Assembly (NCBI RefSeq): GCF_003319185.1
Contig: NZ_QOHJ01000006.1
Span: 248,001-312,000 of the forward strand
From: Blastococcus sp. TF02A-30
GTDB taxonomy: Bacteria; Actinomycetota; Actinomycetes; Mycobacteriales; Geodermatophilaceae
Length of the DNA stretch: 64,000 nt
Direction of reading: 5' to 3'
The position numbers were made by a program, and so were the translations under genes. How positions within the stretch are numbered: the first letter of the stretch is position 1; the number at the start of each line of letters is the position of its first letter. This document shows positions 54,494 through 60,865 of the stretch, one piece after another. The notes beneath the pieces were generated by a model. It ran no database searches and had not been told where the DNA came from. It worked only from the letters and a program-made list of their open reading frames with translations.

Positions 54494-55825
54494 GTGCTGC
54501 CCAGCACGCGCTACGCCCGCAGCGGTGAGCTGTCCATCGCCTACCAGGTGGTCGGGGACGGCCCGCTGGACCTCGTCGCCGCCCCGGGCTTCATCTCCCA
54601 CCTCGACTGGAACTGGCAGGAGCCCGCGCTGCGCCGGTTCCTGCAGCGCCTGGCGGAGTTCAGCCGGCTGATCCTGTTCGACAAGCGCGGCACCGGGCTG
54701 TCGGACCCGGTGCCCGGCCCGGCCACCCTCGAGGAGCGCACCGACGACCTGCGCGCGGTGATGGACGCCGCCGGCTCCGAGCGCGCCGCCCTGCTCGGCG
54801 TCTCCGAGGGTGGCGCGATGGCGATGCTGTTCGCCGCCCAGCACCCCGAGCGCACCCGGGCGCTGGTGCTGTACGGCGCCTACCCCCGCATCGTCCGCGC
54901 CCCCGACTTCCCCGAGGGCGTGGACGCCGAGGTGATGGCCGCGATGCTGAGCCGGCTGGTCGAGCGCTGGGGCGAGGGTTCCGGTCTGGGCGCGTGGGCG
55001 CCCGACCACCGCCAGGACCCCGCGCTGCGGGCGTGGTGGGGCACCCTGCAGCGGATGGGTGCCAGCCCCGGCATGGCGCGGCGCATGTTCGAGCTGTACC
55101 CGCGCATCGACCTCCGCGATGTCCTCGGGACCATCCGCGTGCCGACCCTGGTGCTGCACCGGCGCGGGGACCGGATGATCCCCCTCGGCGTCGGCCGCTA
55201 CCTGGCCGAGCACATCGCCGGCGCCCGGATGGTCGAGCTGGACGGCGCCGACCACCTGTTCTTCCTCGGGGACACCGAGACGCCGCTGGCCGAGATCGAG
55301 GGGTTCCTCACCGGCAGCCGCCCGGCGCCGGACCCGGGGGGCACGGTGCTGGCCACCGTGCTGTTCGCCGACGTCGCCGGCTCCACCGAGCTGGCCGCAC
55401 GGGTCGGCGACGCCGCGTGGCGCGGCATCCGGCAGCGGTTCCTCGACCTGGTCCGGGCCGAGCTGGACCGCTACGGCGGGGCGGAGGTCGACGTCGCCGG
55501 CGACGGGCTGCTCGCCACCTTCCCCGGGCCGGCCCGGGCCATCCGCTGCGCGCTGGCGATGCAGGAGGCGGCCGGTGCCGCCGGTGTGCGGCTGCGGGTG
55601 GGCGTGCACGCGGGTGAGGTGCAGCGGCTCGACGGCGGGCAGGTCGCCGGCCTCGCCGTGCACATCGGCGCGCGGGTGATGGCCGAGGCGGAGCCGGGCG
55701 AGGTGCTGGTCTCGGGCACCGTGAAGGACCTCGTCGTGGGGTCGGGGCTCGCCTTCGCCGAGCGCGGGGTGCGGACGCTGCGCGGGGTGCCGGGCAGCTG
55801 GCCGCTGTTCGCCGCGGCCGGCTGA
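54494..55825 (+). CDS. Alpha/beta-hydrolase fused to a class III nucleotide cyclase domain
   Basis: The 443-residue two-domain protein has an N-terminal alpha/beta-hydrolase (residues 1-275). Its nucleophile elbow is GVSEGG, and a possible acid and His lie in RRGDRMIP and DGADHLFF. The C-terminal class III cyclase (about 285-443) has metal ligands Asp293 in LFADVAGST and Asp337 in VAGDGLL. The residue that is usually the adenine-binding Lys is Asp333, and the usual transition-state Asn is His390, while Arg394 is kept. Cyclase activity or base specificity may therefore be altered. A CAGACT hexamer 7 bases before the GTG is a weak promoter candidate. Confidence 0.88.
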   Translation: MLPSTRYARSGELSIAYQVVGDGPLDLVAAPGFISHLDWNWQEPALRRFLQRLAEFSRLILFDKRGTGLSDPVPGPATLEERTDDLRAVMDAAGSERAALLGVSEGGAMAMLFAAQHPERTRALVLYGAYPRIVRAPDFPEGVDAEVMAAMLSRLVERWGEGSGLGAWAPDHRQDPALRAWWGTLQRMGASPGMARRMFELYPRIDLRDVLGTIRVPTLVLHRRGDRMIPLGVGRYLAEHIAGARMVELDGADHLFFLGDTETPLAEIEGFLTGSRPAPDPGGTVLATVLFADVAGSTELAARVGDAAWRGIRQRFLDLVRAELDRYGGAEVDVAGDGLLATFPGPARAIRCALAMQEAAGAAGVRLRVGVHAGEVQRLDGGQVAGLAVHIGARVMAEAEPGEVLVSGTVKDLVVGSGLAFAERGVRTLRGVPGSWPLFAAAG

Positions 55826-55904
55826 GCGCCGTCCTCCGGCCCTTCTCAGCAGCGGCGGAACAGGCGTACGGTCCGCGCAGCCGCCCGACGGAGCGGAGGA
55901 CCCC

Positions 55905-57545
55905 ATGGGCCAGCCGGTGCTGCTCGCCGTGGACGACGACGCGCCCGTGCTGGCCGCGGTCGAGCGCGACCTGAGGTCCCGCTACGCCGAGCACTACCAG
56001 GTCCTCGCCGCCTCCTCGGGCGAGCAGGCGCTGGACCTGCTGCACCGGCTGCGGCTGCGCGAGGAACCGGTCGCGCTGCTGCTGGTGGACGAGCGCATGC
56101 CCGGCATGAGCGGCACCGAGTTCCTCACCGCGTCGCGCCGGCTCTACCCGGAGGCGCGCCGGGTGCTGCTCACCGCCTACGCCGACACCGACGCCGCCAT
56201 CCGCGCCATCAACGACGCCGAGGTGCAGCACTACCTGCTCAAGCCCTGGGACCCGCCCGAGGACCGGCTCTACCCGGTCCTGGACGACCTGCTGGAGACC
56301 TGGCGGCGGCCGGCGCCGGCCGCGAACCTCCGGCTGATCGGCGACCGGTGGTCCCCGTCGACGCACGAGGTGCGCCAGTTCCTCGCCCGCAACCTGGTTC
56401 CCTACCGGTGGCTGGACGTGGAGACCGACGCGGCGGCGCGCGAGCTGCTGGACGTGGCCCGGGTGGACGCCGGCGAGCTGCCGGTCCTCGTGCTGGAGGA
56501 CGGGGACGTGCTGGCCCGGCCCGACCTGCACGAGGTGGCGCAGCGGATCGGCCTGCACGTCCGGGCCGACCGGGACGCCTACGACCTGGTCATCGCCGGC
56601 GCCGGTCCGGCCGGGCTGGCCGCCGCGGTGTACGGGGCGTCGGAGGGACTGGCCACGCTGCTGCTGGAGTGCAGCGCCCCCGGCGGCCAGGCGGGGACGA
56701 CCACGCGGATCGAGAACTACCTCGGCTTCCCGGTGGGGCTCTCCGGCGCCGACCTCACGCTGCGCGCGCGGGAGCAGGCGATCCGCTTCGGTGCCGAGAT
56801 GCTGGTGCCGAGCGAGGCCGTCGGCCTGGAGCGTGCCGACCCGTACACCGTCGTCCGCCTGGCCGACGGCGGTGAGGTGAGCGCCTCGGCGCTGGTCATC
56901 GCCTCCGGCGTCACCTACCGCACGCTCGACGTGCCCGGCGCCGCGGCGCTGACCGGCATGGGCGTCTACTACGGCGCCGGGCGCGCGGAGGCGGTCGACC
57001 ACAGCGGCGGTTCGGTGTTCGTGGTCGGCGGGGGGAACTCGGCCGGGCAGGCGGCGGTGTTCCTGTCCGCGTTCGCCGCCTCCGTCACCGTGCTGGTCCG
57101 CGGGGACGACCTGACGAGCACCATGTCGCGCTACCTCATCGACCGGATCGAGGCCTCGGAGCGGATCACCGTCGCCCACCGGACGGAGGTCGCCGGCGTG
57201 CTGGGGGAGCGGCGGGTGGAGGGGCTGCGGCTGCGGTCGGGCACGGACGAGCAGGAGGTGCCCGCCGACGCGCTGTTCGTCTTCGTGGGCCAGGCGCCGC
57301 GCACCGGCTGGCTGGAGGGTGTGGTGCGCCGCGACGAGCGCGGCTTCCTGCTCACCGGAGCGGAGCTGGGCCAGCCCCCGGAGGGCTGGCCGCTGCCGGT
57401 GCCGCCGCTGCCCCTGGAGACCTCGGTGCCGCGGGTGTTCGCGGCCGGCGACGTCCGCAGGGGATCGATCAAGCGGATCGCCTCCGCCGTCGGCGAGGGG
57501 GCGATGGCGGTCAGCTTCGCGCACGAGCGCCTGGCCGGGCGGTGA
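55905..57545 (+). CDS. Response regulator fused to a thioredoxin-reductase-like flavoprotein
   Basis: The 546-residue protein has three parts. Residues 1-130 are a receiver with acidic triad DDD at 10-12, phosphoacceptor Asp62 in LLVDERMPG, Thr in LLTAY and Lys in YLLKPWD. Residues 140-220 resemble a glutaredoxin-like fold with SPST (150-153) where CPxC would be. Residues 227-546 are a FAD/NADPH reductase with GAGPAG (232-237), GGQAGTTTRIENYLGFP, GGGNSAGQAA and FAAGDVRRGSIKR. The two redox cysteines of thioredoxin reductase are missing; GVYYGAG occupies that place. ATG has GGAGGA upstream. It overlaps the kinase gene by 4 bases. Confidence 0.9.
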   Translation: MGQPVLLAVDDDAPVLAAVERDLRSRYAEHYQVLAASSGEQALDLLHRLRLREEPVALLLVDERMPGMSGTEFLTASRRLYPEARRVLLTAYADTDAAIRAINDAEVQHYLLKPWDPPEDRLYPVLDDLLETWRRPAPAANLRLIGDRWSPSTHEVRQFLARNLVPYRWLDVETDAAARELLDVARVDAGELPVLVLEDGDVLARPDLHEVAQRIGLHVRADRDAYDLVIAGAGPAGLAAAVYGASEGLATLLLECSAPGGQAGTTTRIENYLGFPVGLSGADLTLRAREQAIRFGAEMLVPSEAVGLERADPYTVVRLADGGEVSASALVIASGVTYRTLDVPGAAALTGMGVYYGAGRAEAVDHSGGSVFVVGGGNSAGQAAVFLSAFAASVTVLVRGDDLTSTMSRYLIDRIEASERITVAHRTEVAGVLGERRVEGLRLRSGTDEQEVPADALFVFVGQAPRTGWLEGVVRRDERGFLLTGAELGQPPEGWPLPVPPLPLETSVPRVFAAGDVRRGSIKRIASAVGEGAMAVSFAHERLAGR

Positions 57546-58879
57546 CCCCGGCGCCTGCCGACGACGTGGTCGCCGCGCTGCGGTCCTCGCCGTTGCTCGC
57601 CGAGCTACCGGACCCGGTGGTGGCCGAGCTGGCCGCCGGCGGCCGGACCGTGGACGTGCCGGCCGGGGCGGTGCTCATGGCCGAGGGGGAGCCGTCGGAC
57701 GCGATGGTGGTCGTCCTGGACGGTGAGCTGGAGGTCACCCGGGCAGGTGGCGGGGAGCGCGTGCTGCTCAACGTCTGCACGCGGGGGGACCTTCTGGGGG
57801 AGCTGGGCGTGCTGCAGGGCCTGCCGCGCTCGGCGACGGTGCGGGCCCGGACCGCGGTGCGCGTGCGGCAGATCGGCGCCGACGCCCTGGACCGGCTGCT
57901 CGCCCACCCGAGGACCGCGCGCGCCCTCCTGCAGGCGGTCACCCGGCGGCTGGCGCGCGAGGAGGCGCTGCTGCGCCAGCGGGAGCGGATGGCCGCGCTG
58001 GGCTCGCTGGCCGCCGGGCTGCTGCACGAGGTGAACAACCCCGCCGCCGCGGTCACCCGGGGCGCCGCCCGGCTGCGCGGCCTGCTGCCACCGGATCCGC
58101 GCACCGCGCCGCTGCGCGCCCTGGTCGCGCCGCCCGCGGCCGATCCGCTGGACCGCGCCGATGCGGCCACGGCGCTGGTCGCCGTCCTGCGGCGGACCGC
58201 GCCGCAGCTCGACCGGTCCGCCGCCGACCAGCTGGCCGGGCTCGGGGTCGACCCGGCGGCGCTGGAGAAGGTGCTGGGCGGTCTGCCGGCGGGCGAGCGG
58301 GTCGGGACCGTCCGGGCCTTCCTGCGCGACGCCGAGGTGGCCGCGATCCTGGACGAGCTGGCGGCGGGCGCCGAGCACCTGAGCCGGATCGTCAGCGGGG
58401 TGCGCCCGCTGGCGTACTCCGCCGACCAGGGCCTGACCGACGTCGACCTGCACGCCGGCCTGGAGCAGGCGCTGGTGCTGGTCCGGCACAAGATCCCGCC
58501 GGGGGTGGAGGTGGTCCGCGAGCTCGACCCGGAGGCCCGGTTCGTCCGGGGCCGCCCGGCCGACCTGGCCCTGGTGTGGGTGAACCTGCTGGACAACGCC
58601 GTCGCCGCGGTGGGGGAGCGGGGCACGATCACGCTGCGGACCCGCCCGGCCGGCGACCGGGTGGAGGTCGACGTCGACGACACCGGGCCGCCGCCGTCCC
58701 CCGAGGTGCTGGAGCGGGCCTTCGACGCGTTCTTCACCACCAAGCCGGTGGGGGAGGGCACCGGTCTGGGCCTGGCCACCGCGCTGGCCGTCGTCGCCCA
58801 GCAGCACGGCGGCGAGCTGACCCTGGGGGCGGCCGACGGCGTCACGCGCGCCCGGGTGCTGCTGCCGCGGCGCGGCTGA
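57542..58879 (+). CDS. Cyclic-nucleotide-binding sensor histidine kinase
   Basis: The 445-residue cytoplasmic protein has an N-terminal cNMP-binding domain (residues 15-135), with VPAGAVLMAEGEPSDAM and the phosphate-binding-cassette region RGDLLGELGVLQGLPRSATV. The second half has a dimerisation/phosphoacceptor helix LGSLAAGLLHEVNNPAAAV (His162), an N box LVWVNLLDNAVAAVG and G boxes DDTGPPPSP and GTGLGLATALAVV. No membrane helix is seen. Translation is coupled to the response-regulator gene (GTGA overlap), so the two are presumed partners. The cassette arginine is present, favouring real nucleotide binding. Confidence 0.9.
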   Translation: MTPAPADDVVAALRSSPLLAELPDPVVAELAAGGRTVDVPAGAVLMAEGEPSDAMVVVLDGELEVTRAGGGERVLLNVCTRGDLLGELGVLQGLPRSATVRARTAVRVRQIGADALDRLLAHPRTARALLQAVTRRLAREEALLRQRERMAALGSLAAGLLHEVNNPAAAVTRGAARLRGLLPPDPRTAPLRALVAPPAADPLDRADAATALVAVLRRTAPQLDRSAADQLAGLGVDPAALEKVLGGLPAGERVGTVRAFLRDAEVAAILDELAAGAEHLSRIVSGVRPLAYSADQGLTDVDLHAGLEQALVLVRHKIPPGVEVVRELDPEARFVRGRPADLALVWVNLLDNAVAAVGERGTITLRTRPAGDRVEVDVDDTGPPPSPEVLERAFDAFFTTKPVGEGTGLGLATALAVVAQQHGGELTLGAADGVTRARVLLPRRG

Positions 58880-58895
58880 GGGTCCTGCGGCAGGG

Positions 58896-59339
58896 CTACG
58901 GGCGAGGCACCCCGGCGCGGTCGGTGCGCCGCTCGGCGAGCAGTGCCCGGCAGACACCGGGCATGTCCACCAGGCCGACCAGGCGACCGCCGGCCACCAC
59001 GGGCGCGAAGACGACGTCGGCCGCCAGCATCCGCTCCGCCGCCTCGGTCACGCCGTCCTCCGGGGCCAGCAGCACCAGCGGGGGCAGCGGCAGCTCGGTG
59101 ATCCGCGCCTGCTCGGGATCCCGCCCGTCGGCGACGGCCCGGGTGACGTCGCTGTCGCAGACCATGGTGACCGGTTCGCAGGTGGCTCCGTCGGCGAGCA
59201 CCACGATGGCGTTGTCGTGCGACTTCTTCATCAGGTAGGCCACGGCGGCCACGTGGGCGCTGCGTTCCACGGTGGTCACCGGCGGGCGCATCACCTCGGC
59301 CACGGTCAGGTGGCCGGTGGCGGTCGTCGACGTGCTCAT
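58896..59339 (-). CDS. CBS-domain pair protein
   Basis: The 147-residue protein consists of two CBS motifs, which bind adenosyl ligands such as AMP, ATP or cyclic dinucleotides. The first starts VAEVMRPPVTTVERSAHVAAVAYLM and includes VTMVCDSDVTRAVADG. The second runs through APEDGVTEAAERMLAADVVFAPVVAGGRLVGLVDMPGVCRAL. The ATG at 59339 overlaps the cyclase stop by ATGA, so the two are cotranscribed. It is convergent with the histidine kinase gene, 16 bases apart. The ligand is unknown. Confidence 0.88.
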   Translation of the reverse strand: MSTSTTATGHLTVAEVMRPPVTTVERSAHVAAVAYLMKKSHDNAIVVLADGATCEPVTMVCDSDVTRAVADGRDPEQARITELPLPPLVLLAPEDGVTEAAERMLAADVVFAPVVAGGRLVGLVDMPGVCRALLAERRTDRAGVPRP

Positions 59340-60865
59340 CGGATCTCCTTCGGGTGCGTGGCGGGGTGCGGCCGGGGCTCGGTGCGGGGACCGGGGACCT
59401 GGAGGAGGTAGGCGTCGACCGCGTCGGCCTTCCCCTTCACCTCCAGCCGGGGGGTGGGCAGCAGCGGGGCGGCGTCGCCGAGGAGCGCGCGGGTGCGGGC
59501 CCCGACGAGGACACCACCGACCGGGGCGGCGGCCTGCAGCCGCGCGGCCACGTTCACCGTGTCCCCGACGGCGGCGTAGACGACGTAGCCGCGGCCGCCC
59601 ATCTCGCTGACGACCACCGGTCCGCTGTTGACGCCCACGCGCAGGCCCGGCCAGTCCGGGTGCGCATCCCGGACCTGCGCCACCTCCGCCTGAAGCGCCG
59701 CGGCGGCCGCGACGGCCCGTGCGGCGTGGTCGGGTTGGTCGCCGCGCCGGTTGAAGGTGGCGAAGATGCCGTCGCCGGTGAACTTCTCCACCTCGCCCCG
59801 GTACCGGCGGGCGACCAGCGGGGTCGCCACCTCGTAGTAGGCGCGGAGCATGGCGGCGACCTCGGCGGGGTCCCGGTGCTCGGCGTAGCTCGTGTAGCCG
59901 GCGAGGTCGCCGACCAGCACCGACACCTCCTGGCGCTGCTCGCGGGTGGCCGGCAGGTAGAGCGGCCGGAAGCGCTCCTCCCGCCACTCCCGCCGGGCGG
60001 CGACGAAGACCAGCAGGAAACCGGCCACGATCAGCGCGTGCCACACCCACCAGGACGGGTGGAACTTGCGCTCGCCGGCCGCGGCGACCCCCACGAGCGC
60101 CTCGGCCAGCAGGACGTAGCAGACGACGACGCTGAGCACGAGAAAACCCGGGTGGTCGCGGTGCACCCACCACAGGCGGGCGGCGGCGGCGACGTAGGCG
60201 AGCGCGGCCAACCCGGCGGCGATCTCCAGCGCGTCCCCGCTGGGTCCCTCACCGGTGATGACGTCGATCGGCGGCCAGTTGCCCACCGACCAGACGCCCC
60301 ACAGCGCCAGCGCCCCGACGACGCCTGCCCGCAGCCACGGCCGGGCCCGCATGACCGCCGGTCCGGCCCACGGCCGCAGGTCCACGTACCCCGAGGCCAG
60401 CGCGAGCGGGGCCGCGACCAGCAGCCCGACCGTGATGGCGACGGTGAACCCCGGCAGCGACCGGCGGGTCAGCACGTCCTGCGTGCCGGCGGCGTGCAGC
60501 GCCATGAAGCCGCTGATCGTCAGGAAGGCCAGCGACAGCAGGAACACGCGGGCATCGCCGCGCCTGCGGGCCGCCTCGGCGGTGACCAGGGAGAGGCTGG
60601 CCGCGGTGGCGCCGACGACCAGGAAGAAGACGAAGTGCAGCGACGGGCTGGTCCAGTGGACGGCCGCGTAGTCGGGGCGGAGGAGGAAGACCAGCCCGGC
60701 GATCGGCAGGACCAGCGCGGCGACCACGACCGCGGCCGCCGTCGGGTGCACCGCACGGATCGCCCGCCGGCCGTCGTCGAGGCGCCGGCGGCCCGACTCG
60801 TCCTGCGCGGGGCGGAGCCCGGCCGGGTCCACCGGGTCAGTGTGCTCCCGTCGGCCGCGCGCCAC
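59336..60865 (-). CDS. Membrane class III adenylate/guanylate cyclase
   Basis: The 509-residue protein has a cytoplasmic N-terminus of about 40 residues and roughly eight membrane helices (44-295; for example AAAVVVAALVLPIAGLVFLL and FLVLSVVVCYVLLAEALVGV). A C-terminal class III catalytic domain starts near 315. The catalytic set looks complete: metal Asp in VLVGDLAGYTSYAEH, Lys and second Asp in EKFTGDGIFATF, and Asn/Arg in AVGDTVNVAARL. It should make cAMP, or cGMP less likely, in response to a membrane or lipid cue. It is cotranscribed with the CBS gene. Confidence 0.9.
   Translation of the reverse strand: MARGRREHTDPVDPAGLRPAQDESGRRRLDDGRRAIRAVHPTAAAVVVAALVLPIAGLVFLLRPDYAAVHWTSPSLHFVFFLVVGATAASLSLVTAEAARRRGDARVFLLSLAFLTISGFMALHAAGTQDVLTRRSLPGFTVAITVGLLVAAPLALASGYVDLRPWAGPAVMRARPWLRAGVVGALALWGVWSVGNWPPIDVITGEGPSGDALEIAAGLAALAYVAAAARLWWVHRDHPGFLVLSVVVCYVLLAEALVGVAAAGERKFHPSWWVWHALIVAGFLLVFVAARREWREERFRPLYLPATREQRQEVSVLVGDLAGYTSYAEHRDPAEVAAMLRAYYEVATPLVARRYRGEVEKFTGDGIFATFNRRGDQPDHAARAVAAAAALQAEVAQVRDAHPDWPGLRVGVNSGPVVVSEMGGRGYVVYAAVGDTVNVAARLQAAAPVGGVLVGARTRALLGDAAPLLPTPRLEVKGKADAVDAYLLQVPGPRTEPRPHPATHPKEIR

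Follow-up and report, generated by a model that had tools for sequence, protein, structure and literature searches.

A candidate cyclic-nucleotide-reading histidine kinase and its CxxC-less flavoprotein partner beside class III cyclases in Blastococcus sp. TF02A-30

Introduction

The closest described systems resemble parts of a five-gene island (genes A to E) at positions 54494 to 60865 of a 64,000-nucleotide stretch, hereafter the window, from Blastococcus sp. TF02A-30 (family Geodermatophilaceae; assembly GCF_003319185.1, contig NZ_QOHJ01000006.1, positions 248,001 to 312,000 of the forward strand). LipJ is the Rv1900c-type lipase/adenylate cyclase; protein A shared its two-domain layout, but scored 440 bits against the cut-off of 800 for the LipJ equivalog model NF058673 and had three canonical catalytic residues replaced. 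The N-terminal domain of kinase C matched GlxR, mycobacterial CRP, and, weakly, the mycobacterial acetyltransferase Pat (50.8 bits, far under the NCBIfam cut-off of 460), but the output of C was a histidine kinase and not DNA binding or acetylation.

Fusions of a receiver with a thioredoxin reductase, which presumably are the proteins named 'fused response regulator/thioredoxin-disulfide reductase' by NCBI, had the same domain order as flavoprotein B of the island, but here the partner kinase carried an intact phosphate-binding cassette and cyclases lay beside the pair. The receiver plus thioredoxin reductase architecture is mentioned in the accessible part of PMC5847659. The annotation 'cyclic nucleotide-binding domain-containing thioredoxin-disulfide reductase' appeared in 4 of 40 listed plasmid rows (Deinococcus, Streptomyces, and Rhodococcus); such proteins shared with B the flavoprotein module lacking CxxC, but the cyclic-nucleotide-type domain was fused directly to it, and in the two examined the cassette Arg was absent and the control domain lay in cis instead of acting via a kinase. 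Reductase-like oxidoreductases without CxxC are presented in the accessible part of PMC10294844, and B displayed the same reductase fold without CxxC; that part describes no receiver or glutaredoxin-like domain, while B had a receiver and a putative glutaredoxin-like domain. No kinase reading cyclic adenosine monophosphate (cAMP) and paired with this flavoprotein was found in the literature covered (titles, abstract starts, and few subscription papers), and the accessible parts of PMC8945050 and PMC2447327 contained nothing on a kinase–flavoprotein pairing.

Kinases of the C type that kept an intact cassette were found here to lie next to class III cyclases far more often than their cassette-less relatives. 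An original prediction, made from the letters of the window, had read the island as a pathway from cyclic nucleotide through a phosphorelay to a flavoprotein; this interpretation was partly supported, in that the cyclase link rests on comparative evidence and the biochemical steps are ones that we infer.

Results

Gene content of the island

All five predicted open reading frames (ORFs) were present with Pfam domains above cut-offs, A, B, and C on the forward strand and D and E on the reverse strand. Both expected 4-base overlaps were there as well: B/C at 57542 to 57545 (+; stop of B and start of C) and D/E at 59336 to 59339 (-; stop of E and start of D). The 4-base B/C overlap, as called, recurred in all 12 complete own-family orthologues (gene starts in relatives came from a simple custom caller). 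The features were as follows:

54494..55825, +, gene A: LipJ-like fusion of an alpha/beta hydrolase with a class III cyclase domain; optional in the island
55905..57545, +, gene B: receiver plus putative Cys-less glutaredoxin-like domain plus thioredoxin-reductase-like flavoprotein
56088..56090, +, Asp62 codon of B: predicted phospho-acceptor, invariant in 12/12 own-family orthologues
56973..56987, +, residues 357–361 of B (GAGRA): at the place of the thioredoxin-reductase CATC in the alignment to PDB 5uth
57542..58879, +, gene C: soluble histidine kinase carrying a cyclic-nucleotide-binding domain at its N terminus
57797..57841, +, phosphate-binding cassette of C, GELGVLQGLPRSATV: residues 86–100 including Glu87 and Arg96, with Glu and Arg invariant in 13/13
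58025..58027, +, His162 codon of C: predicted phosphorylation site, invariant in 13/13 own-family orthologues
58896..59339, -, gene D: CBS-pair protein
59336..60865, -, gene E: class III cyclase with a membrane part of about eight helices

Kinase C and its cassette

C contained cNMP_binding (68.1 bits) and HATPase_c (64.2 bits), both above the Pfam cut-offs, and its hydropathy profile had a single weak peak (340–358) located within the ATPase domain, which agreed with the earlier view of a kinase without membrane helix. It displayed the histidine-kinase residues H162 and N352 and the GTGLGL lid G406–L411, all invariant in 13/13 own-family orthologues; the two residues proposed for phosphotransfer, His162 of C and Asp62 of B, thus proved to be present and conserved. 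The structure model of C (mean pLDDT [predicted local distance difference test] 80.4, pTM [predicted template modeling score] 0.50) gave fold matches that included GlxR and mycobacterial CRP for the N-terminal part and ZraS and ThkA for the kinase part.

In cyclic-nucleotide-binding domains, the cassette Glu and Arg contact the phosphate and ribose of the ligand. C harbored both (Glu87 and Arg96), as did 13/13 own-family orthologues, and its cassette aligned with those of cAMP-binding regulatory subunits of protein kinase A. Among 85 related kinases, Glu and/or Arg were missing in 72 and intact in the other 13, all of which were own-family orthologues including C. Since most kinases of this type lack the cassette Glu/Arg, they probably do not bind cyclic nucleotide in the usual mode; C, unlike most of its relatives, probably can, judging from these residues. 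The intact cassette formed one clade in the tree of the 85 kinases and needed two changes in a quick tree of 136 kinases. The kinase/flavoprotein pair, which the original prediction had called recurring, did recur: B was found on the same strand within 1.5 kb of 78/85 related kinases, and the B-C pair was also seen in records of Bacteroidota, Acidobacteria, Verrucomicrobia, and Cyanobacteria among the matches listed. The B-C pair is old and widespread; the intact cassette is rare.

Two to three tandem kinases of the C type were observed in seven genomes of one family, f58 (L281, L282, L283, L286, L287, L289, and L290; L denotes loci and G genomes); none had both cassette residues, and B was present in the same stretch except in L287.

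Association of intact cassettes with neighboring cyclases

The survey covered 96 own-family genomes and a phylum sample of 396 genomes. Regions were fetched for 40 own-family places, 40 of 46 other places, and 40 from the phylum kinase list, and a scan of named genomes gave at least 80 loci, of which 12 with a full-length kinase were used. The fetched stretches were 3.7–21 kb long, and a cyclase was counted as nearby when it lay within the fetched stretch. Cyclases were counted with a custom hidden Markov model (HMM) that missed none of the five PF00211 loci in the own genome.

A close B orthologue (B at least 77% identical) was present in 13/96 own-family genomes, and for 12 of these 13 B-C orthologues the fetched region included a class III cyclase, while about 0.21 of 12 cyclase-adjacent loci was expected from the per-genome cyclase numbers (G072 omitted). 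Paralogous pairs of the same family (B 52–55% identical) had a cyclase in 0/18 loci; the cassette was intact in 13/13 own-family orthologues vs 0/19 kinases of the paralogous pairs. Across 136 related kinases, a cyclase was found in the fetched stretch for 17/23 kinases with an intact cassette vs 4/113 others (L246 and L275, on contigs of 3.7 and 4.2 kb, were scored as without in the 17/23 and dropped in a separate Fisher test). Counted by locus outside the own family, a cyclase was near 5/10 intact vs 4/82 not intact (Fisher p 0.0005; the 82 loci count one sequence twice, L087 being L197), and 5/8 loci had one where 0.31/8 was expected (L246 and L275 omitted for short contigs). Expected counts and p-values treat genomes or rows as independent; because the intact cassette forms one clade or needs two changes, the p-values overstate independence. 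Chance adjacency of a cyclase to B-C was rejected, the observed counts being far above the expected ones.

The neighboring cyclases belonged to several architectures: (i) E itself beside B-C in G000, G034, G094, and G058; (ii) in G093, G087, G090, G059, and G083, a cyclase-AAA protein roughly 1,085 residues long and oriented convergently with C; (iii) a longer cyclase (about 1,192 residues) that includes AAA and TPR parts in G038 and G088, with a broken form in G053 (of the large AAA cyclases, the G093 and G038 copies were searched with Pfam); (iv) the LipJ-like type of A; and (v) cyclases of other kinds in G820, G801, and G769, which together with G600 and G698 made up the five outside loci with a cyclase, all from other classes of the phylum. 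Given cyclases of several architectures, the association was formed, or refilled, more than once; their variety suggests repeated association. In the 136-kinase tree, cyclase presence needed nine changes, and an independent-pairs test on the kinase tree found one usable pair. The link between cyclases and kinase, which the original prediction had offered as its own inference, stood in comparative terms: the neighborhood was conserved beyond this genome, and cyclase adjacency went with the intact cassette.

Other genes were also seen near B-C pairs. L273:1914-11804 (G820) comprised B, C, then a truncated-haemoglobin-like gene, a cyclase, a major facilitator superfamily (MFS) transporter gene, and a second cyclase; a gas or redox input is possible. 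At L277:12386-13216, beside an intact-cassette pair that lacks a cyclase neighbor, a calcineurin-like phosphoesterase gene, with no NCBIfam family match, ended 45 bp ahead of B; this fold is shared by some cAMP phosphodiesterases. An RPE65-type carotenoid oxygenase gene preceded B at L053:7682-9052 (G059).

Flavoprotein B

B contained Response_reg (58.0 bits) and Pyr_redox_2 (115.1 bits), both above the Pfam cut-offs. Its receiver carried the acidic pair, phospho-accepting Asp, Thr, and Lys of response regulators, namely D10, D11, D62, T90, and K113, invariant in 12/12 own-family orthologues. The FAD-binding motif GxGPAG was present as GAGPAGL in 12/12 orthologues. The accessible part of PMC5627308 lists GGGxxAxE and HRRDxxRA for the NADPH site of thioredoxin reductases; B had neither, displaying G(G/A)GNSAGQ in 12/12 orthologues and no HRRD, and no Cys stood at the CxxC place in any of the 12 orthologues, B reading GAGRA where thioredoxin reductase has CATC. 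The score of B against TIGR01292 was 206.9 bits, under the cut-off of 343.45. An assignment of B as a thioredoxin-reductase-type enzyme was thus not supported: B is not a true thioredoxin reductase, because the CxxC and HRRD motifs are absent.

The middle domain of B was Cys-less at the active-site position and had no Pfam match. Residues 142–214 displayed a thioredoxin-like order of strands and helices in a structure model of low confidence (mean pLDDT 57.0 for B), and we read this domain as glutaredoxin-like from its sequence and that model.

Three more B-like proteins were encoded in G000 on contigs C24, C17, and C11 (53, 45, and 42% identical, respectively): the C24 copy adjoined a kinase with a degenerate cassette, and no kinase was found within the 20 kb fetched around the C17 and C11 copies. 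One B relative was annotated 'FAD-dependent oxidoreductase' and adjoined a kinase annotated 'ATP-binding protein'.

Cyclases A and E and CBS protein D

Class III cyclases display two metal-binding Asp, a Lys/Asp substrate pair, an Asn, and an Arg. E matched Guanylate_cyc (PF00211) with 58.1 bits, above the cut-off, and carried all six residues (D320, K361, D365, D435, N438, and R442), with the Lys/Asp substrate pair as in adenylate cyclases; its hydropathy profile had nine peaks, two of them overlapping, in keeping with the predicted eight or so membrane helices. A matched Abhydrolase_1 (61.6 bits) and Guanylate_cyc (26.8 bits; cut-off 21.9), and it kept D293, D337, and R394 but had D333 at the Lys site, L387 at the Asp site, and H390 at the Asn site. 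Both cyclase domains that the original prediction had named were thus found, and the residue set was complete in E and not in A, which, going by these residues, may be inactive as a cyclase or may be a sensor.

In G000 and G094, A preceded B; in G053, it came immediately after C, the two genes overlapping by 4 bases. A-like genes (E value at most 1e-40) were present in 9/13 genomes with the B-C pair vs 2/83 without it (one of the two pair-less matches, in G002, was the hydrolase part alone, and the Fisher test on this co-occurrence counted 1/83 pair-less genomes); A co-occurred with the pair even where unlinked. The A-like gene copy in G093 had two stops inside.

D contained two stretches matching Pfam CBS. 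A D homologue was found near C in 8/13 own-family orthologous loci; in G053, A stood between them, and the match in G088 was weaker.

Chromosomal site of the island

The island occupied a variable site flanked by an aminotransferase gene and by an aldo/keto reductase gene next to rarA. Among 20 further same-genus genomes (besides G000, G094, and G058), 17 had none of A–E in the stretch viewed: the empty site with both flanks was seen in 14, and the stretches of G035, G020, and G044 showed no aminotransferase gene either. The site or its genes were otherwise found as (i) B, C, and D plus E in two overlapping pieces in G491, (ii) A without the other genes at the site in G088, whose B-C pair was on a different contig, and (iii) D plus a 3' portion of C at the beginning of one contig and A at the end of another in G490, where no B was found in the stretches viewed. 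Outside the genus, G034 harbored B, C, D, and E at the same chromosomal site. The five genes, taken as one island in the original prediction, were present here; as a fixed operon the set was rejected, A being optional and the cyclase beside B-C varying by lineage. The five-gene set is one local version of a pattern with a varying cyclase.

Proposed circuit and alternative explanations

What the sequences show directly is the order of the genes, their domains, the conserved residues, and the tendency of intact cassettes to have cyclases as neighbors; as related islands in distant bacteria preserve this link, the island is probably a real signaling route. A local circuit is favored with some reserve, in which E would make cAMP and C would read it and phosphorylate B, gating the redox activity of B. 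The membrane cyclase E would sense a membrane-side cue; the cAMP made would bind to the intact cassette of soluble C and alter autophosphorylation at His162; C would hand the phosphate to Asp62 of B; and phosphorylation would open or close the flavin and NAD(P)H oxidoreductase half of B, whose enzyme activity we infer to be the output. A (hydrolase plus degenerate cyclase domain) and D (CBS pair) would serve as accessory inputs. A further reading, put forward tentatively and with a chance a little under even, is that of a cAMP-gated two-component system in which the flavoenzyme lacking the reductase cysteines would be a phosphorylation-controlled NAD(P)H/redox switch and the cyclases would be interchangeable sensors; one step beyond, the flavoprotein would report the redox state back and close a cAMP–redox loop.

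Several observations weigh against the local circuit. The cassette–cyclase link is only one or two independent contrasts, and most relatives examined had the pair without an intact cassette or a nearby cyclase. Intact cassettes were found without a neighboring cyclase: (i) in G072, a fragmented genome with the B-C region on two contigs, neither the 12 kb visible ahead of B nor the 8.7 kb visible behind C contained a cyclase; (ii) L277, L280, and L284 had none in their 20 kb stretches, with 17 cyclases elsewhere in G533, the genome of L277; (iii) G821 (L246) had two PF00211 matches, both on other contigs; and (iv) G728 (L275; 90% complete), with its cassette-intact kinase next to B, had no PF00211 match genome-wide. 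Cassette-less kinases with a cyclase nearby were found in L173, L285, L288, and L297, of which L285, its domain lost, groups with the intact kinases. Three of the six catalytic residues are absent from A, the substrate positions of the 1,085-residue cyclases are Gln and Leu, and the G088 cyclase has Ser for Asn. Within the phylum sample of 396 genomes, 26 others had E homologues, and by position these lay within 10 kb of a listed kinase place in only 2, G600 and G698.

The variable site could mean that B-C and the cyclases are separate genes gathering in a shared accessory region with no common signal, as the 17 of 20 same-genus genomes without A–E there, the solitary A of G088 with its B-C on another contig, and the split E of G491 would suggest. 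This is considered unlikely: the link recurs in varied chromosomal surroundings and in further classes, it tracks the cassette and not the site, paralogous pairs of the same family lack it (0/18 loci), and A accompanies the pair also when unlinked. C might instead read a cell-wide cAMP pool supplied by other cyclases, the adjacency reflecting common cAMP physiology and the neighbors having their own inputs. The 13 own-family genomes with the pair have 2–7 cyclases each, at least one besides the neighbor, and G072, L277, L280, and L284 combine intact cassettes with cyclases only elsewhere, which favors such a pool; but the single class III cyclase match of G600 is the one near B-C, the cyclase and B-C genes of G053 and G698 stand in tight same-strand runs, and G728, with an intact cassette and no cyclase match, counts against a pool as it does against the local circuit, so that a cell-wide pool appears improbable. 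Signal flow might also be reversed, with B-C sensing redox state (flavin and NAD(P)H), the kinase or B acting on the cyclases, and cAMP being the output. The pair is kept without an intact cassette in 72/85 kinases, which means that B or C could sense without cAMP; reversed flow, however, leaves the association of cassettes with neighboring cyclases unexplained, and we hold it to be very unlikely.

If the local circuit is true, it would join cyclic nucleotides and the histidine–aspartate phosphorelay, bacterial signaling currencies usually described apart. It would also supply an input open to testing for a widespread flavoprotein family, for which no described function was found. Homologous kinases with and without the cassette provide a natural control, as they can be compared for binding, kinase activity, and cyclase dependence.

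Homologues of E elsewhere in the phylum

The E homologue of G600, a genome of another class, was 42% identical over 432 residues, membrane part included; it was the sole PF00211 match of that genome, and one MFS transporter gene separated it from B. G698 (L276:409-14025) harbored a same-strand run composed of an FAD-binding protein, an E-like cyclase with a membrane part, a cyclase-AAA protein, B, and C, followed by a short ORF and a HEAT-repeat protein with its own cyclic-nucleotide-binding domain.

Eleven E-homologue loci (G600 included) were viewed with at most 1.5 kb per side, some others being at contig ends. E-type cyclases with intact-cassette neighbors were seen in G764 (L317:2-1606), where the cyclase adjoined a protein that combines tandem cyclic-nucleotide domains and an NTE-like part, and in G785 (L323:1700-3124), where it adjoined an MFS transporter fused to a cyclic-nucleotide domain; in G765, a LuxR-type response regulator stood beside the E homologue. 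The idea of E as a cyclase dedicated to B-C was rejected, given its scarcity near kinase places in the other genomes; the observations fit a family of cyclases that sometimes have a local reader, C being one. In G691 (L314:1519-4384), a B-like flavoprotein module, the N-terminal end of which fell outside the locus, lay directly beside an E-type membrane cyclase.

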